DNA of 64,000 bases, from contig CAMNTQ010000008.1 in assembly GCA_946558695.1 (NCBI GenBank), positions 1 through 64,000 on the forward strand, given 5' to 3'. Both the position numbers and the translations under genes were made by a program. The notes beneath the pieces are model-generated. The model did not search any database. It worked only from the letters and a program-made list of their open reading frames with translations, and had not been told where the DNA came from. How positions within the stretch are numbered: position 1 is the first letter of the stretch; every line of letters begins with the position of its first letter. The stretch is from an uncultured Lachnospiraceae bacterium (GTDB taxonomy: Bacteria > Bacillota > Clostridia > Lachnospirales > Lachnospiraceae). Shown in pieces: positions 17,671 through 41,724 of this stretch.

Positions 17671-17791
17671 CTGAATATCCTTTCGCTGACTAACGATTGC
17701 TGCACAGAAGTGCGCAATTTTTAACATTATAGTAATAATAAAATATGTTTTTACATTTTGCAATATATTATTGCAAAAAATGTTAAAAAAC

Positions 17792-17816
17792 AAACAAAAA
17801 TAGTAAATATTTGTTT
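17792..17816. promoter_or_regulatory. Weak candidate DeoR operator (AT-rich imperfect inverted repeat)
   Basis: AAACAAAAAT ... ATATTTGTTT with one mismatch, in the divergent promoter region. Confidence 0.3.
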
Positions 17817-17846
17817 TTATATAAACACAAACAACAGGATAATATG

Positions 17847-17875
17847 TTGAAATATAAACTTTTTGTAAATATAAT
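17847..17875 (+). promoter_or_regulatory. Sigma-A type promoter for module 2 operon
   Basis: TTGAAA - 17 nt - TATAAT, about 50 nt upstream of the ATG at 17926. Confidence 0.7.
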
Positions 17876-17925
17876 TATCACATAGAAGCAATTTAAAGTG
17901 TTATGTTGATAAAGGAGATACAGCT

Positions 17926-19922: not shown

Positions 19923-19947
19923 AAAAGATGATAAAGGAGAGAAAAAT

Positions 19948-20862: not shown

Positions 20863-20875
20863 GCGGGGTAGGAAT

Positions 20876-22159: not shown

Positions 22160-22187
22160 CCCGGATGAATTTGAAAAGTGAAGGTGA

Positions 22188-23573: not shown

Positions 23574-23585
23574 GAGGGAAGCTTT

Positions 23586-25284: not shown

Positions 25285-25950
25285 TTATTCTATATAATCC
25301 CTCCCTGCCACAAGCGCGCTTCTTTTTTTATCCTCCTCCGGCACAAAGCTGTCATCGCTCCATGCGGTAATCGTCAGTTTATCGTCTTCTGACACTTCTA
25401 CAATATTAAGCGCCGCATTGCCAAGCGGTTTTACATTCCACACATCATTGATTTGTTTTCCTTCAAAATGCAGCATAAGGAGTGTCAGACAGATCATATG
25501 AGAAGTGATCAGAATTGTCTTCCCTCTGTTCTCTCTAACAATCCACCAGAATGCTTTAATAATCCTGTCCGACACTTCCTCAAAGGTATCGCCGCCTTCT
25601 ATCCGGCAGTCTTCCGGGCAGTTGCCCCACAGGTATATCTGGCCCGGAAACCGCTCTTCTACTTCATTGCCGTCAAGACCTTCCCACTCTCCGCAGCCGA
25701 TTTCTCGAAGCGCATCATCTTTTATGATCTCAATCTTCCGGTCTCCTTTTATAATCTCTCCGGTTTCATAAGCACGAAGCATAGGGCTTGAATAGATCAC
25801 ATCAATCTGAGTATCCTTCAAAGCCTCCCTCGCATATCCCGCCTGCCGGCGTCCTTTCTCATTAAGCGGAATATCCGCGCTCCCCAAAAATTTACAGAGT
25901 ATATTCCACTCTGTCTCCCCGTGGCGCACCATAATTACCTTTGTGTTCAT
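25285..25950 (-). CDS. Histidine phosphatase family protein (phosphoglycerate mutase-like)
   Basis: MVRHGETEWN, YSSPMLRAYETGEII, ILITSHM. Confidence 0.9.
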   Translation of the reverse strand: MNTKVIMVRHGETEWNILCKFLGSADIPLNEKGRRQAGYAREALKDTQIDVIYSSPMLRAYETGEIIKGDRKIEIIKDDALREIGCGEWEGLDGNEVEERFPGQIYLWGNCPEDCRIEGGDTFEEVSDRIIKAFWWIVRENRGKTILITSHMICLTLLMLHFEGKQINDVWNVKPLGNAALNIVEVSEDDKLTITAWSDDSFVPEEDKKRSALVAGRDYIE

Positions 25951-25963
25951 TATTCAAATCTCC

Positions 25964-26821
25964 TTACTCTTTATCTGCTTCGTCTGCCCTCTTTGCTTTG
26001 CCTGCTCCATCTGCTTCCTCCGCTTTTCCCGCTTCGTCTGCCTTCTCTGCATACCTGCACCGGTCTGTGAGCCATGACTTTACATTGTCCTGTATAACCA
26101 TCCGGCGCATCTCATCCTCAGAAACAGCCTTTAACAGAAGTTCTACATTGGTAAATTTATATTCCTCTGCATATTCCTCCAATGCCTTCTGAAAATCCTG
26201 CTCTGATGGTTTCAGGCCATATTTCTGTGCAATGACATCAGCCACCAGTTCCTGCTTTAAAGAGGCTTTTGCCGCCTCATCAAGATCCTTATCCTCCAGT
26301 TTGATGGTCTTCATATATTCCTCATATTCCATATTTTCCTGCAAAGCATAGGATTCATACAGATCAACCATATTCTGCTTCACTTTTTTCAGGCGCTCCT
26401 TTGGATACTTTTTCACTTCACTGTTATCCATGACCTTTTCCCATACCCGTGTTTCTTCTTCTTTGCGCGCTGATTCCTTTTTCGTATCGTCGATCTGCTT
26501 TTTCAGCTCCGCCCGGTAAGCTTCCACTGTATCTGCCGTATCTGACATAGTTTCTTTCACAATCTCATCTGTGATCTGCGTATCTTCCGGCAGCTCATTC
26601 TTTCTGATATAACTGCTCATCATATGGTTTACGACTTTGTCTACATCTTCTTCTGTCGTCTCATCTATCTCTACTTTCTCTATCTCAATCCCCTGATAAT
26701 TTTCCACTGTCACATACTCGTCCGATATTTTTTTCGGTCCTGCTCCCGCGCAGGCCGTTGTCAGAAAAACCGTCAGCCAAAGAACTGCCGGCAAACCTTT
26801 CACGTATACTTTTCTTTTCAT
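25964..26821 (-). CDS. Trigger-factor-like lipoprotein lacking a recognisable FKBP domain
   Basis: Lipobox VFLTTACAGAG; TF C-domain-like TDEIVKETMSDTADTVEAYRAELKKQIDDTKKESARKEEETRVWEKVMDNSEVKKYP; low-complexity C-terminus (EKADEAGKAEEADGAGKAKRADEADKE). Confidence 0.65.
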   Translation of the reverse strand: MKRKVYVKGLPAVLWLTVFLTTACAGAGPKKISDEYVTVENYQGIEIEKVEIDETTEEDVDKVVNHMMSSYIRKNELPEDTQITDEIVKETMSDTADTVEAYRAELKKQIDDTKKESARKEEETRVWEKVMDNSEVKKYPKERLKKVKQNMVDLYESYALQENMEYEEYMKTIKLEDKDLDEAAKASLKQELVADVIAQKYGLKPSEQDFQKALEEYAEEYKFTNVELLLKAVSEDEMRRMVIQDNVKSWLTDRCRYAEKADEAGKAEEADGAGKAKRADEADKE

Positions 26822-26997
26822 AATACTCTGCCTCCCGATTCTTTTAAGCAATGATGATCTGTCACATCAACTTCTCGATATCCCCCGCAATTGCACTTGA
26901 TCTTCAAAATGCGCGCCGCCGGGCGCACAATATGACGGGGCAGCCTCCCGCCAAGCCAAGAGACTGCCCCTGTATAAAGTAAGAGCGAATTCCCTCT

Positions 26998-28044
26998 TTA
27001 TACCATCTTTACAACACCTTTTATTACTTCATCCTTATGGTTCAGACTGTAGTCAATTGCCTCGATACAATCCTCAAACGGGAACTCATGTGATACAATC
27101 TTTTTCACCGGAATCAGTCCGGATGCTACCGCCGCGATTGCTTTCGGCCACAGATTCCTGTAACGGTATACGGAATAAATGGTTCCTTCCATCGCATTCA
27201 ATGTCGCAATATCAAGCTCAAGTACCGGCTCCGGTGATACGCCTGTCAGCGTAACTTTTCCGCCGCGTTTGATCAGACGGCAAGTCTGCAATGTGGTAAT
27301 GCGGTTTCCTGCACACTCATATACCTGATCTGCACCGCCGCCCGGAAGCGTCTTTGCAAACTCTTCAATGTTCTCTCTCGTGCTGTTGAATACTCTTGTA
27401 GCTCCAACCTCCATCGCCTTTTCCAGACGTTTGTCCATAACGTCGGCTACGTATATCTCGCTGACTCCGCGCGCTTTCAGCGCCATAACAGTACAAAGAC
27501 CGATACAGCCGCTTCCCAGTACGATCGCCGTCTCGCCAACCCTTGCATCAGAAAGCTCCGTTCCGTGCATACCCACAGCCAGAGGCTCGATCATCGCACC
27601 CTCTAATGTGCCTACATTCTCCGGAAGCTTATAGCACATAGACGCATCATGTACGCAGTATTCCGCATTTACGCCGTCTCTCTCGTGAGGAATCGCAAGC
27701 ATCTTAATGTTTGTACACAGATTGTAAAGTCCTTTTCTGCACTCTTCACATTCTCCGCACGGAACAGCAGGCTCGATAGATACCTTATCACCAATCTCAA
27801 ACCCGGTTACTCCTTCTCCGATGGCAGTAACTACTCCGCCCGGCTCATGACCAAGCGCAAGAGGACCGTCAAGCGTCCAGTTCGCAAGCTGTCCTTCCTG
27901 ATAAAAATGAAGGTCAGAACCGCAGATTCCCACATATTCAAGCTTAATCTGGAGCTCTCCCGGACCGGGCTTCGGAATATCCCGTTCCACCCATTCCAGT
28001 TTCTGTTTTCCGGTCAATACACAAACTTTCATCTTTCCTTCCAT
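26998..28044 (-). CDS. Zinc-dependent medium-chain alcohol/polyol dehydrogenase (sorbitol/xylitol dehydrogenase-like)
   Basis: GICGSDLHFYQEG, LGHEPGGVVTAIGEGV, CGECEECRKGLYNLC. Confidence 0.9.
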   Translation of the reverse strand: MEGKMKVCVLTGKQKLEWVERDIPKPGPGELQIKLEYVGICGSDLHFYQEGQLANWTLDGPLALGHEPGGVVTAIGEGVTGFEIGDKVSIEPAVPCGECEECRKGLYNLCTNIKMLAIPHERDGVNAEYCVHDASMCYKLPENVGTLEGAMIEPLAVGMHGTELSDARVGETAIVLGSGCIGLCTVMALKARGVSEIYVADVMDKRLEKAMEVGATRVFNSTRENIEEFAKTLPGGGADQVYECAGNRITTLQTCRLIKRGGKVTLTGVSPEPVLELDIATLNAMEGTIYSVYRYRNLWPKAIAAVASGLIPVKKIVSHEFPFEDCIEAIDYSLNHKDEVIKGVVKMV

Positions 28045-28067
28045 ATCGCATTACCTCTTTTCTAAAA

Positions 28068-29549
28068 TTATTTTGTTAATACTCTGTGAACCGCCGAAAG
28101 CCATCCCTGATACTTATTATCCCGGATCTTTTTCTCCATCCTCGGCTCATATTTTACACGTTTTAATTTTTCAAATATCTTTTCATCCCAGACACCGAGC
28201 GCCAGACCTGCCGCATATGCCGGACCGATTCCAGACAACTCCTCTGAATCCGGAACCTGCACATCTGCCTCGGCAATATCGCTCTGGAACTGCATCAGAT
28301 AAGCATTTCTTGTCGGCCCTCCGTCTACCCGAAGCTCTCCAACCGTCACACCCGCATCTCCGCTCATGGCCTTTACGATATCCGTAATCTGATATGCGAT
28401 ACACTCAACGCCGGCTCTCACAACCTCTGCTTTCCCGGTCGTTCTCGTCATCCCCACAATTGCAGCGGATGCATGGCTGTCCCAGTAAGGCGCCCCAAGT
28501 CCGGAAAATGCCGGTATGAGATAAAGCGAATCATCGGATACCGCTTCTTTTGCAAGTTTTTCCGTCTCCGCCGGAGAATCTATCAGCTTCAGATCATCCT
28601 TCAGCCACGTAATAGTCGCTCCGGTATAATTGAGATTCCCTTCCAGCACATAATTCACCTTGCCGCCCATACTCCACGCCAGCGATGTCACTACTCCGTG
28701 GGTGCTGAGTACCGGCTTTTCTCCGATATTCATCATAATAGATGAGCCGGTACCGTACGTAGATTTGATCATACCGCTCTTAAGACACCCCTGCCCGAAT
28801 AAGGAACCATGAGAATCTCCCAGTACCCCATGTATCGGAATGGGTTTCTTAAAGAACCCTTCAAAGTCCGTCTCGCCAAAGTCAGCATCGGAATCTACAA
28901 CTTCTGCAAGATTCCCCGGATCGATTCCGAATAACTTACAGATATCCTCATCCCACTTCAATTCAAAAATATTGAAAAGCTGCGTTCTTGATGCGTTGGA
29001 GTAATCTGTTTTATAGGATCTCCCTCCTGTCAGCTTAAAAACAAGCCAGCTATCTACTGTTCCATGACAGATTTCTTTCTTTTCTGCTTTTTCTTTCGCA
29101 CCCTCAACATTTTCCAGAATCCATGCAATCTTCGATGCCGGAAAATAAGGGGACAGATTGATTCCGGTTCTCCTTCGGATATTTTCCGCTTCGCCCATTT
29201 TTTCCACGCGCTCGCAGATATCCACAGCCCTTGCACATTGCCATACGATCGCATGTCCGAGAGGCTCACCCGTCACTTTATCCCATGCAAGGGAAGTCTC
29301 TCTCTGGTTACTGATCCCGATGCCCACAACTTCTTCTTTATCAATGCCGGATTCTTCTACCAGTCTCTTTACAACCTCGACCGTGTTCCCGTATATCTCG
29401 GCCGGGTTATGGGAAACCCAGCCTTTTTCATTGATAATCTGCTCGTGCGGTTTGTCGGTGCGCTTGATAAGACTTCCGCTCTCATCAAAAAGAAGCGCTT
29501 TTGTACCCTGCGTACTCTGGTCGATACTGATAATATATTTTTCTGCCAT
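28068..29549 (-). CDS. FGGY-family kinase, glycerol-kinase-like
   Basis: IGISNQRETSLAWDKVTGEPLGHAIVWQ, TDYSNASRTQLFNI, YGTGSSIMMNIG, LRVDGGPTRNAYLMQFQSDI. Confidence 0.88.
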   Translation of the reverse strand: MAEKYIISIDQSTQGTKALLFDESGSLIKRTDKPHEQIINEKGWVSHNPAEIYGNTVEVVKRLVEESGIDKEEVVGIGISNQRETSLAWDKVTGEPLGHAIVWQCARAVDICERVEKMGEAENIRRRTGINLSPYFPASKIAWILENVEGAKEKAEKKEICHGTVDSWLVFKLTGGRSYKTDYSNASRTQLFNIFELKWDEDICKLFGIDPGNLAEVVDSDADFGETDFEGFFKKPIPIHGVLGDSHGSLFGQGCLKSGMIKSTYGTGSSIMMNIGEKPVLSTHGVVTSLAWSMGGKVNYVLEGNLNYTGATITWLKDDLKLIDSPAETEKLAKEAVSDDSLYLIPAFSGLGAPYWDSHASAAIVGMTRTTGKAEVVRAGVECIAYQITDIVKAMSGDAGVTVGELRVDGGPTRNAYLMQFQSDIAEADVQVPDSEELSGIGPAYAAGLALGVWDEKIFEKLKRVKYEPRMEKKIRDNKYQGWLSAVHRVLTK

Positions 29550-30479
29550 CTATACCAACTCCAGTGCTTTCTTTGCAATGCCCTCTGCGTTCATCTCATA
29601 GTAATCGAATACTTCCTTAGATGTTCCGGTAATAACCGGCGCATCCGGCAGAGCAATATTAACCACCTTCTTGGGGCATTCACTTCCTACCACTTGGCTT
29701 ACCATAGAGCCCAATCCGCCGAACGGAGCATGCTCTTCCACAGTGATGACTGCCTTTGCATTCGATGCTGCTTTTACGATTGCATCTGTGTCTAATGGTT
29801 TCACGCAGTACATGTCAACAACTGTCGCGCTGATTCCTTTTTCTTTTAAGATCGCCGCCGCATCTACAGACGGTTTTACCATCTCACCGCATGCAATGAT
29901 CGCAATATCAGTCCCTTCTGTGACAACTGTCGCCTTATCCATCTCAAACGGCACATTGCCTTCTTCGTAGACATCGTCAACCGCGTTTCTTCCCACGCGG
30001 ATGTAAGCCGGCTTGTCATCCTTAAGAAGCTCTTTTGTCAAAAGCTCTGTCTGAAGTCTGTCGCTTGGAAGATAGACTCTCATATTCGGAACTGCGCACA
30101 TTGCCGCAATATCCTGAGCAGAATGGTGGCTCATTCCCAGCGCGCCGTAGCTGACGCCGCCGCTGATGCCGATCAGTTTTACATTCGTATTGGAATACGC
30201 CACATCAACCTTGCACTGCTCATAACTTCTTGTGGACAGGAAACATGCCGGAGACGCCGCGTACGGCTTCTTACCGCATTTTGCAAGTCCCGCGGAGATG
30301 CTTACCAGATTCTGCTCCGCGATACCCGTCTCTACGAATTGATCCGGAAGTTCATTGGCAAAAGGTGTAAATGAAGCGCTCCCTCTAGAATCACTGCACA
30401 GAGCCACAACATCCTTATCCTGTTTTCCTGCTTCTATCAATACATCACAAATTACCTGTTTGTTTGCAATCTTAGCCAT
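29550..30479 (-). CDS. Transketolase C-terminal subunit (split transketolase)
   Basis: DSRGSASFTPFANELPDQFVETGIAEQNLVSISAGLA; overlaps the N subunit gene by 8 bp. Confidence 0.92.
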   Translation of the reverse strand: MAKIANKQVICDVLIEAGKQDKDVVALCSDSRGSASFTPFANELPDQFVETGIAEQNLVSISAGLAKCGKKPYAASPACFLSTRSYEQCKVDVAYSNTNVKLIGISGGVSYGALGMSHHSAQDIAAMCAVPNMRVYLPSDRLQTELLTKELLKDDKPAYIRVGRNAVDDVYEEGNVPFEMDKATVVTEGTDIAIIACGEMVKPSVDAAAILKEKGISATVVDMYCVKPLDTDAIVKAASNAKAVITVEEHAPFGGLGSMVSQVVGSECPKKVVNIALPDAPVITGTSKEVFDYYEMNAEGIAKKALELV

Positions 30480-31305
30480 GAAGCGCCGCCTCCTTTCCTG
30501 CTTTCAGATCTTTTTTGATCTGCTCAAGCTCCTCTGCGTTCGGTACCTTATGATGCCAGTTTGCCTTGTTCTCCATAACAGAAGAGCCTTTGCCCTTTAC
30601 TGTGTTGGCGATCAGCACTGTCGGTTTCCCTTTCACTTCCTTTGCCGCGTCAAATGCAGCCTTCAACTGGTCAATATCATTGCCGTCCGCCACATCGATC
30701 ACATTCCACCCAAAGGATTTCCATCTCTCATGAAGATCATCATGCGCCATAACATCCTCTGTATTACCGGAAATCTGAAGCCGGTTTCTGTCAACAACCG
30801 CACAGAGATTATCAAGCCCATAATGGCTTGCCGCCATCGCGCCTTCCCATACGGAACCCTCTGCGATCTCACCGTCTCCCATAACGGTATATACTCTGTA
30901 ATCTTTCTTGTCCATCTTACCAGCAAGCGCCATGCCTACACTGACCGGAAGCCCGTGTCCTAATGAACCCGAATTCATCTCGATACCCGGAAGCTTATTA
31001 TTGGGATGTCCGATGAACTTAGAACCGAATTTACTAAACTGAGCAATCACATCCCTGATGTCAAAAAATCCCTTTGCAGCCAGAACCGCATAATATGCCT
31101 CTACAGAATGTCCCTTACTCATAATGAACTTATCACGGTCAGGATCATCCATATTCTCAGGACTGATATTCATCTGATCAAAATAAATTTCCGTCAAAAT
31201 CTCCATAACACTCATGTCACCGCCAATATGTCCGGCCTTTCCTTCGACAATCATGTCAATTACATTTTCTCTTAATTCATAAGCTAATGCTTTTAAATTT
31301 TCCAT
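30472..31305 (-). CDS. Transketolase N-terminal subunit (split transketolase)
   Basis: MVEGKAGHIGGDMSVMEILTEIYFD, SKGHSVEAYYAVLA, MGDGEIAEGSVWEGAMAASHYGLDNLCAVVDRN; start trimmed to MENLKALAY. Confidence 0.92.
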   Translation of the reverse strand: MENLKALAYELRENVIDMIVEGKAGHIGGDMSVMEILTEIYFDQMNISPENMDDPDRDKFIMSKGHSVEAYYAVLAAKGFFDIRDVIAQFSKFGSKFIGHPNNKLPGIEMNSGSLGHGLPVSVGMALAGKMDKKDYRVYTVMGDGEIAEGSVWEGAMAASHYGLDNLCAVVDRNRLQISGNTEDVMAHDDLHERWKSFGWNVIDVADGNDIDQLKAAFDAAKEVKGKPTVLIANTVKGKGSSVMENKANWHHKVPNAEELEQIKKDLKAGKEAALHG

Positions 31306-31336
31306 TATCCATTTCCTTTCCGCCGCTTGACACAGC

Positions 31337-32320
31337 CTATTTTTTCTTAAATACACGTGTAACTTTATCACGCATCACCGGATTCTCCTTAATCGCATCA
31401 ACCGTTACAGCAATGAGCACAACGCCGCCAGTAACAACCGTCTCCCAGTAGGAGGATACACGAAGCAGTGTAATGGATGTCGAAACTGTCTGCTGCAGAA
31501 GACCGCCGATTACCGTTCCGATCACGCCGCCGATACCGCCTGTCATAGAAGTTCCGCCGAGTACGGAGGCCGCGATCGTCGGGTTTACCCAGTTCTCACC
31601 GATCGTCGCTTGGAAGGATGCCAGTTTACATGCCATCATAGTACCTGCGATTGCCGCAAGAAGCCCGCTCATAGCGTATACGATCACTTCTACTCTCTCC
31701 GTCTTGATACCAACAATCTTCGCACAGTTTCTGTTACCGCCCAATGCATAGATATGACGTCCGAATTTCGTATATTTCAGCATCATAGTAAGAATCAGGC
31801 AGATGATCGCCATAATAATCACGATCGTCGGAAGGAAACCTCCCAGTACTCCGTTTGCCACAAACTGTGCGCTGGCAGGCATACCTACGATCGGCGAGCC
31901 CTTTGTTACGATGTATACAACGCCTTTGTAAATTTCCGCCGTCGCCAAAGTTACGATAAACGGCGTCAGACGTAAGTATGCGATAAACAATCCGTTGATC
32001 ATGCCGAGCGCAATTCCGATCAGACAGGAAACGAGAATCGAAAGCCACGGATTCACGCCCTGCTCAACCATCAGCTTCGCTGCGCACATACTTGCTACGG
32101 AACCGACAGCCGCAACTGACAGGTCGATACCTCCCGTCAAAAGAACCATCGTCTGTCCAAACGCTACAATAATGATAAATGATGCCGCTCTCGTCAATGT
32201 ACTGATATTATATGCGGTAAAGAAATTCCCGGTAAAAAGATGTACGGCAATTCCTACAAGGATCGTTACGATCAATACCATTCCCGCAGTGGATTTTAAA
32301 AACTCTACTACCTTTTTCAT
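31337..32320 (-). CDS. Sugar ABC transporter permease (RbsC-like)
   Basis: LLTGGIDLSVAAVGSVASM, YALGGNRNCAKIVGIK. Confidence 0.92.
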   Translation of the reverse strand: MKKVVEFLKSTAGMVLIVTILVGIAVHLFTGNFFTAYNISTLTRAASFIIIVAFGQTMVLLTGGIDLSVAAVGSVASMCAAKLMVEQGVNPWLSILVSCLIGIALGMINGLFIAYLRLTPFIVTLATAEIYKGVVYIVTKGSPIVGMPASAQFVANGVLGGFLPTIVIIMAIICLILTMMLKYTKFGRHIYALGGNRNCAKIVGIKTERVEVIVYAMSGLLAAIAGTMMACKLASFQATIGENWVNPTIAASVLGGTSMTGGIGGVIGTVIGGLLQQTVSTSITLLRVSSYWETVVTGGVVLIAVTVDAIKENPVMRDKVTRVFKKK

Positions 32321-32335
32321 ATATAATTACCTCCT

Positions 32336-33823
32336 CTACTTAAATGCCATCTGAAGAACATCTTCCTCTGTGGTATATTCTACGTCGTCTATAAAGCCTT
32401 TCGTATGACCCTGATGCATGACCATTACACGGTCTCCCAGCGCCAACACCTCTTCCATCTCCGAAGAGATAACTACAACCGCAACTCCATTATCCGCCAG
32501 CTCTCTGACAAGCGCATGGATCTCAGCTTTTGCATTGACATCGATACCACGGGTCGGCTCATCCATGATCAGCATCCGGATTCCCTTTGCCATCCAGCGG
32601 GCAACGATAACCTTCTGCTGATTGCCGCCTGACAGATTCTTAATGAGGGCATCCCGTCCTGCCGTTTTAATACGAAATCTGTCGATATACTGATCTGTGA
32701 TCTCACTTGCCTTTTTATAATCGATCAGTCCGTTCTTTTTCAGTTGGTCATAGGAAGGAAGCACCATATTCTCCATAACCGACATACCAGGAGTGATACC
32801 GTCATGCCGCCGTTCCTCAGATACATATCCCATACCAAGCTTGATCGCTATTCTCGGATCGGCAATATCCACTTCTTTTCCTTCTATAAACATCTTTCCA
32901 CCCGGTTCCGGACGTGTAATCCCAAATACGCTTCGAAAGACCTCTGTACGGCCGGCTCCCACCAGTCCGGATACGGCAAGAATCTCACCTTTTCTCACGG
33001 TAAAGCTAACATTCTCAAACTCGCCCTGACGAGTCAGATTCTTTGCCTCGAAGAACACCTCATCCGACACCTTGCGGATTACATGCTGTGATTCCGTAAC
33101 CTTCTTACCGGCCATGTTCGTAACGATCTCTTCTTTTGTGATGTCCTTGATCTCCGTAACTTTTACAAGCTGTCCGTCTCTCATGATCGTCGCACGGTCC
33201 GCCTGAGCCATAACTTCATCCAGATGATGCGTAATAAATATCATGGAGGTTCCAGCCTTTTTCAGTCTCTGCATAGATGCAAACAAGGAATCCGCCTCTT
33301 TATTTGTCAGCACGGCCGTCGGTTCATCAAGGATCAATACCCTCGGCGAATATGCCAGCGCTCTGGCAATTGATACCAACTGCTGATAAGCCGCAGATAA
33401 ATGTTTTACTTTCTGCGTAACATCTATTTCTACATTCAGAAGCTTTAAGAGCTCCACCGCTTCTTTTTCTGCAGTTTTCCAACTAATCTTTACTCCGCTC
33501 ACTCTCTCATTTCCAAGAAAAATATTTTCCGCAATCGACGCTTCCGGAATCAGATTCAATTCCTGCGGCACGATTACGATATGATTGGATGACGCTTCCT
33601 GGGGAGATGATATCCTGATCGGTTTGCCGTCCATCAGAATCTCTCCTTCATCCATAATATACTGTCCTACCAGACAGTTCATCAGAGTACTCTTCCCGGC
33701 CCCGTTCTCGCCAAGCAGCGCATGGATTTCCCCTGGCTTGATACTAAGATCAACTCCATCCAAAGCTCTGGTTCCCGGAAATATCTTTGTAACTCCCTTC
33801 ATTTCAATTACGAATTCGCTCAA
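32336..33823 (-). CDS. Sugar ABC transporter ATP-binding protein (RbsA/MglA-like)
   Basis: GENGAGKSTLMNCL, LSGGNQQKVIVARWM, DEPTRGIDVNAK. Confidence 0.93.
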   Translation of the reverse strand: MSEFVIEMKGVTKIFPGTRALDGVDLSIKPGEIHALLGENGAGKSTLMNCLVGQYIMDEGEILMDGKPIRISSPQEASSNHIVIVPQELNLIPEASIAENIFLGNERVSGVKISWKTAEKEAVELLKLLNVEIDVTQKVKHLSAAYQQLVSIARALAYSPRVLILDEPTAVLTNKEADSLFASMQRLKKAGTSMIFITHHLDEVMAQADRATIMRDGQLVKVTEIKDITKEEIVTNMAGKKVTESQHVIRKVSDEVFFEAKNLTRQGEFENVSFTVRKGEILAVSGLVGAGRTEVFRSVFGITRPEPGGKMFIEGKEVDIADPRIAIKLGMGYVSEERRHDGITPGMSVMENMVLPSYDQLKKNGLIDYKKASEITDQYIDRFRIKTAGRDALIKNLSGGNQQKVIVARWMAKGIRMLIMDEPTRGIDVNAKAEIHALVRELADNGVAVVVISSEMEEVLALGDRVMVMHQGHTKGFIDDVEYTTEEDVLQMAFK

Positions 33824-33877
33824 CTTTCTTCACTTCCTCTACTTCTTTTTTCGAATACAAGTATCAAGTGCCGTTTT

Positions 33878-33922
33878 AAAAAAATCCACGTGACTATGTA
33901 CCGCATAATCACGTGGATTTTT
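33878..33922 (-). terminator. Intra-operon stem-loop / attenuating terminator between binding-protein and ATPase genes
   Basis: AAAAATCCACGTGA...TCACGTGGATTTTT, 14-bp arms; minus-strand T-run follows. Confidence 0.7.
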
Positions 33923-33987
33923 ATTGCTTCGTCCTTTAGTCACTTAGACAAATGATTCCACTTTGTTCTTACTTTAGTTGGTATCTG

Positions 33988-35100
33988 TTATTTGCTGAAA
34001 AGCAGGTCAATATATGTCTGAGCATCATCTTTGAATGCCAATGAAGAACCAACATCTGTAACGTCCTCTGTCGGAGCCTCGCCGTCGATCACTCTGACAG
34101 CCTCGTAGATAGCCTTATATCCCATGTCATAGCAGTTCTGAATACAAGCAACATAAAGGGTGCCGTCTGCAAGGTAGTTCAGTGTACGAAGGTCATGATC
34201 CATACCGCCGATAACAACCTGTCCCGCTTTTCCAGCGTCAGCTACAGCCTGACATGCGCCAACCGGGTTAGACATGTTGTTGCAAAGAATACCGCCAAGA
34301 TCCGGATATGCCTGCATCCATGCTTCTGTAATGGAAATAGCATTCTCAACCATATCGTCATCTCTCTGATCATCTACAACTTCGATTTCCGGATACTTCT
34401 TAACTGTATCATAGAAAGCTTTCAGTCTGTCTTCATGAGAGGTTGCTCCGATTGTTCCTGACAAGAAAGCGATCTGTTTCTTTCCATCTTCTTTCATCTT
34501 CTCGCAAACTGCCTCTGCGATGGAAGCGCCATCGCCGTAGTTATCATTGTTACCTACGAAGAATGATCTTCCGCTGTCCGGAAGGTCGGCAGATGCGAAC
34601 AGACCAACTTTAACGCCGTTGTCGATTGCTGTCTTAACAGCAGGCTCAGTAAGCGACTCTTGGTTAACGTCAACAAGAATCATGTCATATCCCTGTCCAA
34701 CCGCTGTCTCAATGGAGTTAACCTGATCATTTGCGTCAGCTCCTACCGGTGCGTACCACTCATAATCAATGGTAATGCCCTTTGCCTTCATGTCTTCTAC
34801 TGCGCCCTTAACGCCAACTTCGATTGCGTCATACCAGTCATGTACTAACTTGTATGTACAGTAAATCTTATATGTATCTTTCTTTGGTTGATAACTTGTA
34901 TCATAATCCTTGTCTGCAAGTCCTGAAGTATCTGCAGTCTCCGTCGCAGTATTGCCTTCATCCGCCGCAGGCTCTTCTGTCTTTGTCTCTGTGGAAGCTG
35001 CATCATCTCCGCCGTCACTGCTTCCTCCGCTGTTGCTGCATCCAGCCATAGCTAATACCATAGCTCCAACTAATAATAAACTAACTAATTTCCTTTTCAT
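33988..35100 (-). CDS. Sugar ABC transporter substrate-binding lipoprotein
   Basis: MKRKLVSLLLVGAMVLAMAGCSNSG lipobox; periplasmic-binding fold (VGQGYDMILVDVNQESLTEPAVKTAIDNGVKVGLF). Confidence 0.9.
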   Translation of the reverse strand: MKRKLVSLLLVGAMVLAMAGCSNSGGSSDGGDDAASTETKTEEPAADEGNTATETADTSGLADKDYDTSYQPKKDTYKIYCTYKLVHDWYDAIEVGVKGAVEDMKAKGITIDYEWYAPVGADANDQVNSIETAVGQGYDMILVDVNQESLTEPAVKTAIDNGVKVGLFASADLPDSGRSFFVGNNDNYGDGASIAEAVCEKMKEDGKKQIAFLSGTIGATSHEDRLKAFYDTVKKYPEIEVVDDQRDDDMVENAISITEAWMQAYPDLGGILCNNMSNPVGACQAVADAGKAGQVVIGGMDHDLRTLNYLADGTLYVACIQNCYDMGYKAIYEAVRVIDGEAPTEDVTDVGSSLAFKDDAQTYIDLLFSK

Positions 35101-35456: not shown

Positions 35457-36470
35457 TTACACAAGTTTCCTGACGCTTTCATTCTCAATCAATCTGGGTT
35501 CAATCTTATATTTTACGTTATACCCTCTTGTCTTTTCTATCTTCTCTACGAGCGCCTTCACCGCAAGCTCTCCCATCTCATTCCCGGGAAGCTGCACCGT
35601 CGTAACTTTCGGTTCAATGAACGAACAGATGGGACGGTTGTCAAACCCAACAAAAGACGCCTCGTCCGGAACTTTGATTCCGCGTCGTTTAAACGCCTGC
35701 ACCGCACGGCACGCCAAAAGGTCATTGTCCGCCAAAAACGCTGTCGGAAGCTTCTGACGTCCGTCCAGATATTTCTCCACATCCTTCTCCGTCTCCGCTT
35801 CCAGATACCCGACTCTCATAACATAATCCTCATGAAAAACCAGCCCCGCCTGCTTCAAACATTGTTTAAACGACTGATACCGCTCGTCAAAACAGATGAT
35901 CGGAAATTTACTCTTAATATATCCGAACTCTCTGTGCCCCATACGGTACAGATACTCGAACCCCTTGTATATTCCCATATAATTGTCTACCGTAACAGCA
36001 TCCACATCCACCGTCGGCAGCGGATTATCCAAAAACACGCAAGGCGCGCTGAGCCTCGCAAAAAACTCCATGTCCTCCGGATACATCTCAACCGCATAGA
36101 TAATATACCCCGCGTACCGGAAATCTTCCATCGCCAGATACCTTTCATTCATCGGCATATTTTTATCCAGATACATCATCGTCATCTTATAATTATTTTC
36201 TTCAACCGCACCGATGATGGCCTCTGACAGATAATTGAAAAAGGGATACTCTTCAATCACCTCACCGCCACACTTATAAATCACGAATCCAATATCCCCT
36301 TTCGCAACATTGCTATCTTTCAAAAGGTATTCGCAGCCTAGTTCCACAACCTTTTTTATAATTTCCTGCCGCTTTTCTTCCCCGACTCCCGGCTTGTTAT
36401 TCAAAACCAATGATACCGCCGCCGGAGACACCCCCAATTCACGCGCGATATCCTTCGCCTTATATCTCAT
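35457..36470 (-). CDS. LacI-family transcriptional regulator
   Basis: MRYKAKDIARELGVSPAAVSLVLNNKPGVGEEKRQEI. Confidence 0.93.
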   Translation of the reverse strand: MRYKAKDIARELGVSPAAVSLVLNNKPGVGEEKRQEIIKKVVELGCEYLLKDSNVAKGDIGFVIYKCGGEVIEEYPFFNYLSEAIIGAVEENNYKMTMMYLDKNMPMNERYLAMEDFRYAGYIIYAVEMYPEDMEFFARLSAPCVFLDNPLPTVDVDAVTVDNYMGIYKGFEYLYRMGHREFGYIKSKFPIICFDERYQSFKQCLKQAGLVFHEDYVMRVGYLEAETEKDVEKYLDGRQKLPTAFLADNDLLACRAVQAFKRRGIKVPDEASFVGFDNRPICSFIEPKVTTVQLPGNEMGELAVKALVEKIEKTRGYNVKYKIEPRLIENESVRKLV

Positions 36471-36495: not shown

Positions 36496-37401
36496 TCACA
36501 TATTTTTTTCAGGCAGCTTATTCACCTTCAGGTTATCCGATACTTCCTGCAGTATTTCAAATGAGTTGATCTCCATTCTCTGGAGCACTCCCATATAAAT
36601 CGCATCCAGCATGGCCTGCTCCGCAACCCTTCTGGCAATCACTTCCTTATCCACCGTAGCGTCCGTCGTTACATTATACAGTACGATATCCGAATATTTT
36701 GTCAATTCTGACTTCCCTGCTTTTGTGATACATATCGTAACCGCGCCGCGCTCTTTGGCGATCCGCATCGCCTCCACAACTTGCTTCGTCCGTCCGCTGT
36801 GAGAAATCGCAATGGCAACGTCTCTCTTTTTTAAATTGCAGGCATTCACGATCTGCACATCCGCATCACTGTCCGCGTAACAATCATAGCCGATTCTCTT
36901 CAATCTCAGACTCGCATAACTGCACGGAAACATGGCATCACCGATGGCAAAGAAACAGATCTTACCGGCTCTCACAATCGCATCACATGCGCGATCATAT
37001 TCCTCAATCGCCGCCACCTCCAGTGTCTTCCTGAGATTCAGTATATTGAGCTTAAATACGCTCTCTACAACTTCCCCCATACTGCGCCCTGACGTAATCT
37101 CATCCGTCTCATCTTTAGCCAAAGGATTGCGGAGTTGCTCGGACAAGAGCCTTTTGAACTGGGCATAACCCGATACGCCGACCGTCCTGCACAGGCGCAC
37201 CACAGTCGCCTCGCCGCAGCCGCAGCGCTTCGCCATCTTCTGAAGCGACATTCCAACCGTCTCATGGGGCGCTTTTAGTACAAATTCCGCAACCTTTTTT
37301 TCTGCCGGAGTAAGGCTTGGCAGCAAAAATTGTGTCGTCGCGAGGATATTCCTTACGCTTTCTGTTCTTCGCATTTTTCCACTCTCTTTTCTCTTTTTCA
37401 T
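36496..37401 (-). CDS. MurR/RpiR-family transcriptional regulator
   Basis: N-terminal HTH (LTPAEKKVAEFVL...MAKRCGCGEATVVRLCRTVGVSGYAQFKRLL) plus SIS domain (DVAIAISHSGRTKQVVEAMRIAKERGA). Confidence 0.92.
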   Translation of the reverse strand: MKKRKESGKMRRTESVRNILATTQFLLPSLTPAEKKVAEFVLKAPHETVGMSLQKMAKRCGCGEATVVRLCRTVGVSGYAQFKRLLSEQLRNPLAKDETDEITSGRSMGEVVESVFKLNILNLRKTLEVAAIEEYDRACDAIVRAGKICFFAIGDAMFPCSYASLRLKRIGYDCYADSDADVQIVNACNLKKRDVAIAISHSGRTKQVVEAMRIAKERGAVTICITKAGKSELTKYSDIVLYNVTTDATVDKEVIARRVAEQAMLDAIYMGVLQRMEINSFEILQEVSDNLKVNKLPEKNM

Positions 37402-37423
37402 ATTCTATATTATCGCATTTTTT

Positions 37424-37572
37424 ACTCCAATTTCAATAAATTATTTTTGGAGTTAATTTTTATAGATTTTGGAGTTTTTGTGTTTAATACACAATATTAT
37501 TTTCATTTTATATTAAATTATTTGTGCATTTTTGCATATTGATAATCCATTTTCTCCAAACTATAATTGGAG
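37424..37572. promoter_or_regulatory. Cluster of five TTGGAG(T)/(A)CTCCAA half-sites: candidate RpiR operators
   Basis: ACTCCAA 37424-37430; TTGGAGT 37447-37453; TTGGAGT 37469-37475; CTCCAA 37554-37559; TTGGAG 37567-37572. Confidence 0.55.
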
Positions 37573-37620
37573 CATACACTAAATTTTTCAAAATTTTATT
37601 TAGAAAGGAATTTGTGTTTC

Positions 37621-38571
37621 ATGAAAAAATCATTTCGCTCCTCACTCATTAACGCTATTGCCAAAAATGCAGAAAACTATCCTGACATGATCGTTTTAAA
37701 CGCAGATTCAGCAAGAGCTCTGAAACTGACCGACTTTTCCAAAGCCTTCCCCGACCGCATGATCGGCGTAGGAATCAGCGAAGCAGATCTGATCGGCACT
37801 GCCGCAGGCCTTGCCGCTACCGGACTTGTCCCCGTAGTAGTCGGATTCTCCATGTTCGTGTCCGAAAAGCCCTTTGAGCAGATACGGCAGGCAATTGCTT
37901 ATCCGAACCTGAATGTAAAAATCGTCGCTACCCACAGCGGACTGTGTGTAGGGCAGGACGGCGCTACGCATCAGGCTTTGGAAGACATGGCCGTCATTCG
38001 TTCGCTGCCGAACTTCAAAGTATTCGCCGCTGCGGATGTAACCGAGACAGAAGCTGCCCTCGAAGCCATGCTAAAACACGACGGCCCCGCATATCTCCGT
38101 TTAGGGCGGGATCTTGCGGAGGATATTTTTGAAGGCCGCAAGAACTTCACTCCGGGAGGCGCAGATATTCTAAGAGAAGGAGACGATGTAACGATTGCGG
38201 CATGCGGGCTGATGGTAGAGCAGGCGCTAATGGCAGCGTGCTCCCTCAGATCGGAAGGCATCCGGGCCACAGTAATGAATGCCTATTCCATCAAACCTCT
38301 TCCGGAACAACTGCTGCTTGAAAAAGCGAAAAAGACCGGCGCCTTTGTCACCGCGGAAGACCACAGCATAATCGGAGGACTGGGAAGCGCCGTGTGCGAA
38401 TATCTCTCAGGAAATTGTCCTGTACCTGTCATCCGCGTAGGTGTCCCGGATCGTTTCGGAGAGTCCGGCACACAGGATGAGCTTTATAAAAAATACGGTT
38501 TGACCGCCGACCATATCATAAAAGCGGCAAAACAGGCCGTCAGCATGAAGACTATGAACGCGAAAGGATAG
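37621..38571 (+). CDS. Transketolase C-terminal subunit (second split transketolase)
   Basis: NADSARALKLTDFSKAFPDRMIGVGISEADLIGTAAGLAATG; start trimmed to MKKSFRSSL preceded by AGAAAGGA. Confidence 0.92.
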   Translation: MKKSFRSSLINAIAKNAENYPDMIVLNADSARALKLTDFSKAFPDRMIGVGISEADLIGTAAGLAATGLVPVVVGFSMFVSEKPFEQIRQAIAYPNLNVKIVATHSGLCVGQDGATHQALEDMAVIRSLPNFKVFAAADVTETEAALEAMLKHDGPAYLRLGRDLAEDIFEGRKNFTPGGADILREGDDVTIAACGLMVEQALMAACSLRSEGIRATVMNAYSIKPLPEQLLLEKAKKTGAFVTAEDHSIIGGLGSAVCEYLSGNCPVPVIRVGVPDRFGESGTQDELYKKYGLTADHIIKAAKQAVSMKTMNAKG

Positions 38572-38581
38572 GTATAACGAT

Positions 38582-39409
38582 ATGTCTAGAAATATTGATG
38601 AATTAAAAATACAGGCAAATACAATCCGAAAAGACATCCTCAAGATGATCTACAATATACAGTCCGGCCATCTCGGCGGTTCTTTTTCCATGGTAGAGGT
38701 ACTGACTGCACTCTACTTCGATGAGATGCACTACGATCCGCACAATCCGTATTTAAAAGACCGCGACCGCTTTGTCCTCTCAAAAGGACATACCGCCCCC
38801 GCCCTCTATGCCACCCTTGCGAATGCAGGGTATTTTCCAAAAGAAAATCTAATGACCTCGTTCCGCCGGATTGATTCCATGATGCAGGGACATCCTGATA
38901 TGAGAAAAACACCGGGTGTAGAGATGACAAGCGGCTCTCTCGGAATCGGCCTGTCCGCCGCAAACGGCATGGCTTTAGGAAACCGTTATCAGGGTATCGG
39001 CGCAAGAGTTTACTGTATGATCGGCGACGGCGAGATCAACGAGGGACAGATCTGGGAGGCCGCCGCCACAGCCTCACATTATCATCTGGATAATCTGGTA
39101 GCGTTCACAGATGTCAACGGACTCCAGAATGATGCCGAGACAAAAAAAGTAAAGGACATGCTTGATATCGCCGAAAAATGGAAAGCCTTCGGTTTTCACA
39201 CCATCGAGATAAACGGCCATGATTTTAACGAGATCTTCGCCGCCCTCGACGCAGCGCGTAATTGCAAAGGCAGGCCAACCGCTGTCATTTCTCACACCAC
39301 CAAGGGCAAGGGCGTATCCTTTATGGAAAACGTAGTCGCTTTCCATGGAAAAACCCCGACAAAAGAAGAGTATGAGAATGGGATGGCAGAACTGGAGCAT
39401 GCGATATAG
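38582..39409 (+). CDS. Transketolase N-terminal subunit (second split transketolase)
   Basis: IQSGHLGGSFSMVEVLTALYFDEM, SKGHTAPALYATLA, IGDGEINEGQIWEAAATASHYHLDNLVAFTDVN. Confidence 0.92.
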   Translation: MSRNIDELKIQANTIRKDILKMIYNIQSGHLGGSFSMVEVLTALYFDEMHYDPHNPYLKDRDRFVLSKGHTAPALYATLANAGYFPKENLMTSFRRIDSMMQGHPDMRKTPGVEMTSGSLGIGLSAANGMALGNRYQGIGARVYCMIGDGEINEGQIWEAAATASHYHLDNLVAFTDVNGLQNDAETKKVKDMLDIAEKWKAFGFHTIEINGHDFNEIFAALDAARNCKGRPTAVISHTTKGKGVSFMENVVAFHGKTPTKEEYENGMAELEHAI

Positions 39410-39421
39410 GAGGAAACAAAT

Positions 39422-40978
39422 ATGAGCACACCAATTTTTATCGGCTGCGATATCGGCACCTCCCACACAAAGGCGGTAGCCGTAAATGCGAATGGAGAAA
39501 TCCTCTCCCAAAGTTCGTCTGCCTACGACATTCTAAAGCCCCGGAACAACTGGGCAGAACAGAATCCAGAAGTATGGCTTGAAGCCGCCGTCTGTACACT
39601 CCGTCAAGTCATCGCGGAAATTCCTTCAAAAAAGGACATTGCATCCATCTGCATCAGCGCTCTGTACGGTGGAACCGGTGTTATGTGCGACGAGCAGATG
39701 GGCTCCGTACGCCCGGTTATCATCTGGATGGACCGCCGCGCCGAGTCAGAAAGCTCCCTGATACGAAAGACACTGGGCGAAGACCGCCTTCTAGAAGTCT
39801 CCGGCAACGGAATTGATTCTTATTTCGGCTATACAAAGCTTTTGTGGGTGAAAGAACACGAACCGGAAAACTGGGTGAAAATCCGCCATATTGTTCCGGT
39901 CCACAGCTATATCATATACAAAATGACTGGAAACTTAAGCGTTGATTACTGTTCCGCCGGCAATGTGGGAGGCATCTACGACTGCAATACCCACTCTTGG
40001 TCGAAGGATATGTGCGAAGAATTGGGAATCCCGTATGATGCACTGCCTCACGACTTCCACGATCCAAGTGATCTGATCGGTTCACTGAACGAAGATTATC
40101 AGAAGAAATTAGGACTTGACCGTCCCGTTCCTCTATGCGCCGGCACGGTTGACTGCATCGCATCCATGCTGAGCGCATCCATCGTCCGCCCCGGAGATAA
40201 CGCGGCAGTTCTGGGAACCTCCCTCAACTGGGGATACATTCACAGCAAGAAACCGGATAATCCGAATCTCGTCTCCATGCCTTACTGCATCGAACCGACA
40301 CGGCTTTGCTACACCTACGGCGGCGCTTCTACTGCCGGCGCGCTGCCAAGATGGTTTGCCCTGAATTTTATGGGGGATGATTCCGGCGAGACTTACGATG
40401 AACTGGAACAGTTGATCCGCAAAAATAATATCGGTCCCGGCAGCGACGGACTGATCGCACTCCCTTATTTTATGGGTGAGCGCACTCCCATCTGGGACGA
40501 AAAGGCCGCCGGAGTTCTATTCGGTCTGACCCTCGCACATACAAAAGCGCATATTTACCGCGCAGTTCTGGAAGCAGTCGCATATTCGCTCCTTCACATT
40601 ATGGAGTCCATGACCGGCTCCGGTATGGCAATCGAGAAAATCATCCTCGTAGGAGGCGGCGCGCGGTCCGCTGTATGGAAACAGATATTTGCAGATATTA
40701 CAAATCTCCCGATCGTAACGCCCGTTCAGGAAATCGAGGCGCCGCTGGGGGATGCATTTATGGCGGCCGTCGGAGCCGGAGCCATTACAGAATATGAGGA
40801 AATCAATTCATGGATCACCATGAATCCTCCGGTTCTTCCCAATAAAGAAAACCACGAATTATATAAAAAGCATTTTTCGCTGTACAAAGAACTGTATCCG
40901 GCCCTGAAAGACATCATGTCCAAGCGGGCGGATATGCTATATAAAATTCAAAAAGGAGAGATAAGCTATGAAAGTTGA
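39422..40978 (+). CDS. FGGY-family carbohydrate kinase (xylulokinase/gluconokinase-like)
   Basis: GCDIGTSHTKAVAVN, IWMDRRAESE, LPYFMGERTPIWDEKAAGVLFGLTLAHTKAHIYRAVLEAVAYSL, ILVGGGARSAVWKQI. Confidence 0.9.
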   Translation: MSTPIFIGCDIGTSHTKAVAVNANGEILSQSSSAYDILKPRNNWAEQNPEVWLEAAVCTLRQVIAEIPSKKDIASICISALYGGTGVMCDEQMGSVRPVIIWMDRRAESESSLIRKTLGEDRLLEVSGNGIDSYFGYTKLLWVKEHEPENWVKIRHIVPVHSYIIYKMTGNLSVDYCSAGNVGGIYDCNTHSWSKDMCEELGIPYDALPHDFHDPSDLIGSLNEDYQKKLGLDRPVPLCAGTVDCIASMLSASIVRPGDNAAVLGTSLNWGYIHSKKPDNPNLVSMPYCIEPTRLCYTYGGASTAGALPRWFALNFMGDDSGETYDELEQLIRKNNIGPGSDGLIALPYFMGERTPIWDEKAAGVLFGLTLAHTKAHIYRAVLEAVAYSLLHIMESMTGSGMAIEKIILVGGGARSAVWKQIFADITNLPIVTPVQEIEAPLGDAFMAAVGAGAITEYEEINSWITMNPPVLPNKENHELYKKHFSLYKELYPALKDIMSKRADMLYKIQKGEISYES

Positions 40979-41657
40979 TTTCAGCAAAGTTGTGGAACTG
41001 AGCCACCGTATGATTCCAAGAGAGGAACCTTTCAACCTGCAGACATGGGTATACGATGTAGATTTCTTAGGGGAGCGCGGAGAACCTCACAGCCCGGGCA
41101 CATGGTATGTATCCGGCGACGTAAATTTCTCCACCCACTGCGGAACTCACGTAGAATTCCCGCTTCACCACGTAGAAGGCGGCATGAACGCCGCTACTTT
41201 CCCCCTTACAAGCCTGATCGGAGAAGCTGTTGTTCTTGATTTTACAGGCAAAAAAGCGGGCGACTGCATGTCGCTTGAAGAATTCAAAGCTTACGACGAC
41301 AAGATTAAAGAAGGAGATATCGTATTCCTTCATACAGGTCTCGACGCAAAATGGCGCACCGAGGACTGGGAGCCGTACCCTTATGTAGCCTGCGATGCTA
41401 TGGAATGGCTGATCAAAGAAAAGAAGATCATCGCTATCGGAACAGATGCAACCTCTCTGGAGAACTTCAACATTCCGGATCAGCCGAATCACAATCTGGC
41501 ATTCAAAAATAATCTGGCAATGGTAGAATCACTGACTAACTTAGACAAGATTGAGAACGGAAGGGCGCTTGTATTCATGCTTCCTCTTAAGATTGTCGGT
41601 ATCGAAGCCTGCCCGTGCCGGATCATCGCGATCAATGACGGAGGAATCCTTCTGTAA
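40968..41657 (+). CDS. Cyclase-family (PF04199-type, kynurenine-formamidase-like) metal-dependent hydrolase
   Basis: FSTHCGTHVEFPLHHVEGG resembles HxGTHxDxPxH; GTDATSLE; last gene of module 4. Confidence 0.85.
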   Translation: MKVDFSKVVELSHRMIPREEPFNLQTWVYDVDFLGERGEPHSPGTWYVSGDVNFSTHCGTHVEFPLHHVEGGMNAATFPLTSLIGEAVVLDFTGKKAGDCMSLEEFKAYDDKIKEGDIVFLHTGLDAKWRTEDWEPYPYVACDAMEWLIKEKKIIAIGTDATSLENFNIPDQPNHNLAFKNNLAMVESLTNLDKIENGRALVFMLPLKIVGIEACPCRIIAINDGGILL

Positions 41658-41677: not shown

Positions 41678-41724
41678 AAAACCGCTGCAGAATAGATCAT
41701 CGCTTATCTATTTTGCAGCGGTTT
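41678..41724. terminator. Terminator of module 4
   Basis: AAACCGCTGCAGAATAGAT...ATCTATTTTGCAGCGGTTT followed by CCTTTTTT. Confidence 0.8.

Follow-up and report, generated by a model that had tools for sequence, protein, structure and literature searches.

Several described systems share components with the locus analyzed here. In C. thermocellum, the gene cluster Clo1313_0073-0080 is induced by xylose and includes a xylitol dehydrogenase (PMC5322536), and its binding protein type is represented by CbpD, for which a 2022 study found no binding of any tested sugar by ITC or NMR (PMC9601137). D-apiose degradation I (aplK, aptA, aptB) combines import, an FGGY kinase and a split transketolase, and the sulfo-transketolase pathway (SqwGH) of Faecalicatena and Clostridium also employs a split transketolase for sugar catabolism in gut Lachnospiraceae (PMC11659671). 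Enzymes of the PF04199 family have amides and esters, cyclic or linear, as their substrates (PMC4243253, PMC6117287, PMC5341072).

Here we analyze a window of 64,000 nucleotides from an uncultured Lachnospiraceae bacterium, in which a minus-strand gene for an RpiR-family regulator faces the plus-strand genes TktC, TktN, FGGY kinase and PF04199 cyclase (Table 1). All five genes lie where a preliminary description of this DNA had placed them, and the close packing and terminator that it reported are borne out, with 10 bp between TktC and TktN, 12 bp between TktN and the kinase, and an 11-bp overlap between kinase and cyclase. The arrangement is not due to chance, because the order RpiR, TktC-TktN-FGGY-cyclase is kept in 11 of 11 genomes, together with LacI. 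The conservation of the neighborhood, on which the preliminary description had staked its reading, was thus found to extend to the cyclase gene, which accompanies the kinase and transketolase genes in every one of the 11 genomes. The overlap between kinase and cyclase is not kept in relatives, where 3-145 bp separate the kinase stop codon from the cyclase reading frame, and we rejected it as a conserved translational coupling.

These four plus-strand genes make up the right arm of a sugar-use locus that has two arms and is conserved among gut Lachnospiraceae. Beside this arm, and conserved with it, are genes for a LacI-family regulator, a CUT2 ABC transporter (spanning 31337-35100 with its binding protein), a second split transketolase, a GlpK-like kinase and a Zn-dependent dehydrogenase, and an ABC transporter was present beside the module wherever that flank was read among the 11 genomes. 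The earlier view of a module without transporter or dehydrogenase is accordingly correct for the rightward transcript, but not for the locus, where both adjoin and are co-conserved. The left arm also occurs on its own, and the retrieved loci of this kind (L111-L113) yielded no RpiR homologue. A TIM-barrel isomerase beside the left arm in one genome (G085) was rejected as a core part, since none of the tested genomes from the genus of the window has it. Literature searches returned no description of this gene set, and no characterized four-gene pathway was matched in the literature and resources searched, as the preliminary description had anticipated.

Table 1. Features of the two-armed locus (positions are those of the window)
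Feature	Coordinates	Strand	Basis
Zn-dependent polyol-type dehydrogenase	26998..28044	-	NCBIfam
GlpK/AplK-like FGGY kinase	28068..29549	-	GlpK subfamily model 596 bits; 36% identical to E. coli AplK
Left split transketolase: TktN 30472-31371, TktC 29550-30479	29550..31371	-	NCBIfam
CUT2 ABC transporter: ATPase 32336-33823, permease 31337-32320	31337..33823	-	ORFs; orthologues in L002-L010
CbpD-type sugar-binding lipoprotein	33988..35100	-	PF13407; PDB 7x0p CbpD E=1.2e-138
LacI-family regulator	35457..36470	-	PF00356/PF13377; syntenic in 11/11 genomes
RpiR-family regulator (HTH_6 + SIS) of right arm	36496..37401	-	Pfam/NCBIfam
Divergent control region	37402..37620	.	promoter scan, palindrome search
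TktC, C-terminal subunit of split transketolase	37621..38571 (longest ORF from 37567)	+	PF02779/PF02780
TktN, ThDP-binding subunit of split transketolase	38582..39409	+	PF00456
FGGY kinase, [AG]LYGG-motif subfamily	39422..40978	+	FGGY_N/FGGY_C
PF04199 cyclase-family metalloprotein, Glu63 variant	40968..41657	+	Pfam, alignment, tree, AlphaFold, PDB fold matches
Intrinsic terminator of right arm	41679..41724	+	19-pair stem, then CCTTTTTT

The LacI and RpiR genes are adjacent, with short or overlapping gaps in 10 of 11 genomes (25 bp here, -8 to 46 bp in nine of ten relatives, and 170 bp in L009); they probably form one operon, and LacI is the probable regulator of the left arm. The promoter scan of the divergent control region identified a strong divergent plus-strand promoter (TTGATA-N17-TATAAT, 37539-37567) and a minus-strand promoter at 37436-37409. 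The TTG at 37567 that opens the longest TktC reading frame falls at the -10 box of the former, and the most likely start of TktC is the ATG at 37621, after a AGAAAGGA site. The region also contains five CTCCAA/TTGGAG half-sites, two of them arranged as palindromes (37425-37452 and 37554-37572). This palindrome pattern occurs twice in the window, both times in the control region (shuffles give 0.05), and at least one TTGGAG half-site is found in this region of all ten genomes examined. Judging from this sequence pattern, the half-sites are the probable RpiR operator, through which RpiR would repress the right arm until a sugar phosphate lifts the repression.

In gene complement the left arm matches the C. 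thermocellum cluster, comprising a GlpK-type kinase, a split transketolase, a polyol dehydrogenase, a CbpD-type transporter and a phosphoglycerate mutase (PMC5322536), and the xdh gene of that cluster is, by gene content, the probable counterpart of the left-arm dehydrogenase. As published, however, the cluster contains a single kinase and transketolase pair and no PF04199 gene, and the right arm is without counterpart there. Similarity to the D-apiose system is seen mainly in the left arm, where the kinase shares 36% identity with E. coli AplK and the two transketolase subunits share 44% and 36% with AptA and AptB, respectively. The left TktC has an AptB-like active site, sharing with AptB the loss of His461 (here Ser) and Asp469 (here Leu), but it keeps Arg520, which AptB lacks. 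In contrast, AplK and the right-arm kinase share only 23% identity, and the right TktC retains His461 and Asp469, leading us to reject the right arm as a D-apiose pathway; the E. coli apiose cluster contains no cyclase gene.

The right-arm transketolase is of the split type, with separate ThDP-binding and pyrimidine/C-terminal subunits that carry the substrate-binding residues. TktC combines the pyrimidine-binding (PF02779) and C-terminal (PF02780) domains and has the C. hydrogenoformans split transketolase as its closest PDB chain (6yaj, E=6.5e-92), while TktN is closest to 6yak (E=8.6e-89). The active-site positions of TktC read R358/A385/F434/H461/D469/H473/R520; following motif roles described in PMC11659671 or generally known for transketolases, the sugar-phosphate residues Arg358, His461, Asp469, His473 and Arg520 are retained and Ser385Ala is fixed, a signature that would fit a sugar-phosphate ketose donor. 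The Ser385 to Ala change is shared with the sulfo-transketolase pathway, but SqwH has Asp instead of His461 and uses an unphosphorylated sulfosugar, in a pathway described without a kinase step and with no mention of a cyclase (PMC11659671). The right TktC reads R-A-F-H-R in place of the sulfo-transketolase motif RAFDR, and no sulfosugar isomerase was recognized in the conserved arms, which hold a kinase. On the basis of the His461 signature and the kinase, we rejected a sulfoquinovose route.

The right-arm kinase scores 336 bits against the XylB model TIGR01312, below its cut-off of 380.25, and has LYGG where classical xylulokinases have QMHG; we consequently rejected its assignment as a classical xylulokinase. 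The [AG]LYGG motif is found in its orthologues and in SDR-linked relatives of 42-44% identity. It could still be argued that xylulokinase and transketolase make the right arm a redundant route for D-xylulose, with the cyclase as a passenger, given the XylB score and the xylose induction of the left-arm homologue in C. thermocellum, which comes with a xylitol dehydrogenase (PMC5322536). We regard this as very improbable: besides the sub-threshold score and divergent motif, XylB proteins above the cut-off are encoded elsewhere in five of five genomes tested, and in 11 of 11 genomes the supposed passenger shows stronger conservation than the kinase, being the most conserved protein of the module.

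The cyclase matches the PF04199 HMM with 92.7 bits (cut-off 23.1) and is the sole PF04199 gene found in this genome (assembly 89% complete). Its AlphaFold model (pLDDT 94.3) has a KynB-like fold, matched with Foldseek probability 1.00 to 8f9x, 5nmp, 1r61 and 4cog; its best fold matches in the PDB belong to PF04199, and those with a name are hydrolases. In the alignment, the ligands H57, H61, H175 and E187 and the general base H67 are intact, but Glu63 replaces the metal-bridging Asp, giving HCGTHVEFPLH for the family motif HxGTHxDxPxH. Because the protein departs from the motif but satisfies both the HMM and the fold comparison, we file it as a variant within PF04199 and not as a standard member. 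Kynurenine formamidase was rejected, as the arylformamidase model TIGR03035 gives 62 bits against a cut-off of 223 and Glu63 occupies the position of Asp56, strictly conserved in KynB. Compared with KynB, isatin hydrolase and the esterase MGS0169, the fold, metal-ligand positions and general-base His are common, whereas identity in the fold comparison is 18-25%, the bridging Asp is Glu and the gene context is sugar-catabolic. Phylogenetically, the cyclase belongs to a clade of 19 (support 100/99) with distinctive residues W46, Q172 and S188, encoded beside sugar ABC transporters and often with FGGY kinases. Each of the 32 E63-group members, distant Lachnospiraceae included, has Glu for Asp; this Glu also occurs in a separate group (L027-L039) beside other genes, so that Glu63 is not sufficient as a clade mark and was rejected as unique to the clade. 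A plasmid search for relatives yielded only 26-31% matches among the best listed, with unrelated context in the one inspected.

The role of the cyclase is best approached through a related Lachnospiraceae locus, L098 (ROK/SDR-FGGY-(aldolase)-TktN-TktC-MFS), which has the same kinase subfamily (42%), similar TktN (53%) and TktC (50%) subunits and the Ser385Ala change, but in which TktN precedes TktC and an SDR dehydrogenase takes the place of the cyclase. We know of no characterization of a module of this type. By analogy with this one related locus with TktNC, the cyclase probably supplies the ketose used by the kinase, because a dehydrogenase fills its place there. The explanation we favor, tentatively and with somewhat less than even confidence, is a two-armed locus for an imported monosaccharide or alditol, with cyclase, kinase and TktCN acting in succession in an RpiR-controlled right arm. 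The CbpD-type transporter would import the sugar or alditol for both arms, import being probably shared because the module is divergently joined to the arm encoding transporter, dehydrogenase, kinase and transketolase; a point against this reading is that the step is left without a ligand, since none of the sugars tested was bound by CbpD, to which the binding protein is most closely related among solved structures (PMC9601137). The PF04199 protein would act first, as a metal-dependent hydrolase or ring-opener releasing a free ketose from an imported derivative (a lactone, ester or other cyclic form), the LYGG-type kinase would phosphorylate this ketose, and TktCN would transfer its two-carbon unit to an acceptor aldehyde, for example glyceraldehyde 3-phosphate, and so feed the pentose phosphate pathway. 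In the left arm, the dehydrogenase, AplK/GlpK-like kinase and AptAB-like transketolase would process another ketose, possibly a branched one.

The cyclase most likely hydrolyzes an imported sugar derivative or opens its ring, and aldose-ketose isomerization is possible. Lactone opening appears compatible with known family activities and with the position of the gene, but a lactone hydrolase would normally yield an aldonate, a poor match for a ketose kinase and a transketolase. That the protein is instead a metal-dependent isomerase new to its family, completing an isomerase-kinase-transketolase pathway for an imported aldose, seems unlikely. It does occupy the ketose-supplying place held by the SDR in L098, xylose isomerase TIGR02630 is absent from five of five module-bearing genomes tested, and the clade combines its Glu for the metal-bridging Asp with distinctive residues. 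To our knowledge and in the cited papers, however, all PF04199 enzymes hydrolyze bonds or cyclize, and the hydrolase general base H67 is retained; the absence of TIGR02630 is uninformative on other isomerase families, and the species may not use aldopentoses. Against our favored order, the module has no isomerase, and the transporter might thus import a ketose directly, in which case the cyclase would have another task. The cyclase could also work on a side product or within the left arm, and not before the kinase. Another reading, which we likewise consider improbable, takes the cyclase as a hydrolase that detoxifies or salvages a reactive or acylated by-product, the kinase receiving its ketose directly from the transporter or the left-arm dehydrogenase. 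That dehydrogenase could feed both kinases, PF04199 enzymes hydrolyze small esters and amides (PMC5341072), and in L044 and L046 the cyclase gene adjoins transporter genes with no recognized kinase in the fetched stretch; against this, its co-occurrence in 11 of 11 genomes and its top conservation among the module genes suggest a role in the main path.

The left-arm result offers a possible reason why the CbpD cluster responds to xylose though CbpD bound no tested sugar: the true substrate of the cluster may be an apiose-type branched sugar or an alditol. For the right arm, it is conceivable, if rather doubtful, that the Glu-bridged PF04199 clade constitutes a new family of sugar-processing metalloenzymes, either aldose-ketose isomerases or ring-openers, from which FGGY kinases and ThDP enzymes of gut Lachnospiraceae receive ketoses. 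PF04199 is known for amide and ester hydrolysis, and a clade tied to sugar transport, kinase and transketolase would extend the family to carbohydrate catabolism and would name a sugar for which gut Lachnospiraceae compete.

The five right-arm genes lie where the preliminary description had placed them, as the coordinates of open reading frames and domains confirm, and the terminator it reported at the end of the arm was found. In the divergent region (219 bp) we detect five CTCCAA/TTGGAG half-sites, with the paired pattern occurring twice across the whole window, both times in this region, against 0.05 occurrences expected; we infer that these half-sites form a putative RpiR operator.

Coordinates of right-arm features and of the gene beyond the left arm
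Feature	Position	Strand
RpiR	36496-37401	-
TktC	37621-38571; longest ORF from 37567	+
TktN	38582-39409	+
FGGY kinase	39422-40978	+
PF04199 protein (cyclase, CYC)	40968-41657	+
Promoter TTGATA-N17-TATAAT	37539-37567	+
Terminator: 19-pair stem, then CCTTTTTT	41679-41724	
Phosphoglycerate mutase-like gene, further on past the left-arm dehydrogenase	25285-25950	

The module had been described as having no transporter or dehydrogenase, which holds for the right arm itself but overlooks an adjoining second arm that encodes both. A LacI gene lies 25 bp beyond RpiR, and past it the left arm runs leftwards with genes for a binding protein, ABC ATPase, permease, TktN, TktC, GlpK-like kinase and Zn-dehydrogenase. 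Between this dehydrogenase and the phosphoglycerate mutase lies a small lipoprotein of trigger-factor-like appearance (25964-26851), and four relatives (L054-L057) carry genes resembling it in the flanks that were fetched. A third kinase/ThDP module (16906-25136) has DeoR (-) facing E1-alpha, E1-beta, class II aldolase, E2, E3 and FGGY kinase, an unusual blend in which an aldolase and a sugar kinase join a 2-oxoacid or acetoin dehydrogenase complex; two relatives (L057 and L113) have a comparable gene set adjoining the left arm.

The order LacI-RpiR/TktC-TktN-FGGY-CYC is identical, strands included, in all genomes in which a close cyclase was found (the window, relatives L002-L010 and genome G085, among them Hespellia stercorisuis, Dorea sp. 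D27, Extibacter muris and Faecalicatena contorta), so that the cyclase is co-conserved with kinase and transketolase throughout, and binding protein and ABC genes accompany the module wherever the flank was read. The 11-bp kinase/cyclase overlap noted previously is genuine but specific to the window, the other close-cyclase genomes having a gap of 3-145 bp. Of the module genes, the cyclase is the most conserved (87-97%) and the kinase is one of the least conserved (66-87%). In Extibacter muris (L007:7464-8296) a frameshift, which may be a sequencing error, divides TktN between two frames. Only five genomes in a same-family sample of about 400 hold a cyclase orthologue. Three genomes (G258, G170, G084) have the left arm, with binding proteins 60-63% identical, yet lack a close cyclase, and the stretches fetched from them yielded no RpiR homologue; the right arm therefore looks like an addition onto an older left arm.

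The two transketolases differ at the active site. In an alignment with E. coli AptB and the Carboxydothermus hydrogenoformans split transketolase (6yaj), in what we take to be E. coli TktA numbering, the right TktC retains Arg358, His461, Asp469, His473 and Arg520, with Ser385 replaced by Ala in the window and all nine aligned orthologues; in the left TktC positions 461 and 469 are Ser and Leu, where AptB has Asn and Leu. Given these residues and their phosphate-orienting role (RAFDR in the sulfosugar transketolase; PMC11659671), the right enzyme looks like a sugar-phosphate transketolase and the left one like an apulose-type transketolase. Against E. coli AplK, AptA and AptB (genes named in PMC13001218), the left-arm kinase and transketolase show 36-44% identity, and in L113 the genes after the left arm, assigned by eye as dihydroxyacetone kinase and triose-phosphate isomerase, are consistent with dihydroxyacetone as its product. 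Since AptB is without Arg520, assigning the left arm to apiose is no more than a lead.

The left-arm binding protein matches Clostridium thermocellum CbpD (7x0p; E=1.2e-138), and the arm matches the gene set of the eight-gene cluster Clo1313_0073-0080, which is up-regulated by xylose and contains a xylitol dehydrogenase and the CbpD transporter (PMC5322536, PMC7471329). CbpD bound none of the sugars tested by ITC or NMR, and its pocket is monosaccharide-sized (PMC9601137). Because the homologous left arm (26998-35100) combines an apulose-type transketolase signature with an AplK-like kinase, the real substrate of this cluster, labelled xylose-related, may be an apiose-type sugar or alditol.

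The cyclase structure, predicted with confidence (pLDDT 94.3), matches exclusively PF04199-type PDB folds at E<=0.001, the named ones being hydrolases (isatin hydrolase, KynB, Ruegeria cyclase-phosphotriesterase). Metal ligands His57, His61, His175 and Glu187 and general base His67 are intact, whereas the bridging Asp56 of KynB is Glu63 here. Glu63, Trp46 and Tyr47 are invariant within a clade of nineteen cyclase relatives (support 100/99); Glu63 recurs in a second group (L027-L039) and is thus by itself no marker of sugar function. Clade members outside window-type loci adjoin sugar ABC transporters (L041/L042, L043, L044/L046; with CUT1-type genes in L045, L048 and L082), which describes the clade and is not a contrast with Asp-type relatives, whose fetched flanks were mostly short. 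L041/L042 read RpiR/CYC-SBP-ABC-permease-SIS-dehydrogenase-DRL-FGGY (SIS, isomerase; DRL, PF21135), perhaps a branched-sugar or reductoisomerase route. In L082 (4745-7426), E1-alpha and E1-beta ThDP genes come immediately after a 51% cyclase relative; an L-fucose-isomerase-like gene and a pair of URO-D genes lie close by. A second, independent association of PF04199 with transketolase is seen in L047 (7555-10043) and L051 (4973-10573), where PF04199 genes of the ordinary Asp type lie close to TktN-TktC and an SDR, alongside ABC or TRAP transporters.

The right-arm kinase scores 336 bits against the xylulokinase model, below the cut-off of 380, and has the motif LYGG in place of the QMHG of classical xylulokinases. 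LYGG also occurs in 42-44% identical Lachnospiraceae kinases, two of which (L097 and L098) neighbour a ROK-type regulator, an SDR and an MFS transporter, as do 44% relatives on Priestia plasmids. After the LYGG-type kinase in L098 come an aldolase fragment and a TktN-TktC pair bearing Ser385Ala, as in the right arm, and the SDR presumably supplies a ketose to the kinase. Chiefly because the cyclase occupies, in the right arm, the place that the SDR has in L098, a comparison with one locus, we infer that the cyclase may provide the right-arm kinase's substrate. It could possibly do so as an isomerase, the simplest completion of the pathway and one in keeping with the absence of xylose isomerase (TIGR02630) from five genomes tested, but we know of no precedent for a PF04199 isomerase. 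Our first choice is that the cyclase would hydrolyse or ring-open an imported sugar derivative to yield the ketose, since amide and ester hydrolysis is the known chemistry of PF04199 (PMC4243253, PMC6117287, PMC5341072). A lactone itself, one of the options suggested in the preliminary description, fits less well because its opening gives an aldonate.

The right-arm locus is real and conserved, and no description of its gene set was found in the literature and database resources searched. Its parts are known: it is a variant of the kinase-transketolase sugar locus in which one of the enzyme families, PF04199, would have an unfamiliar role.
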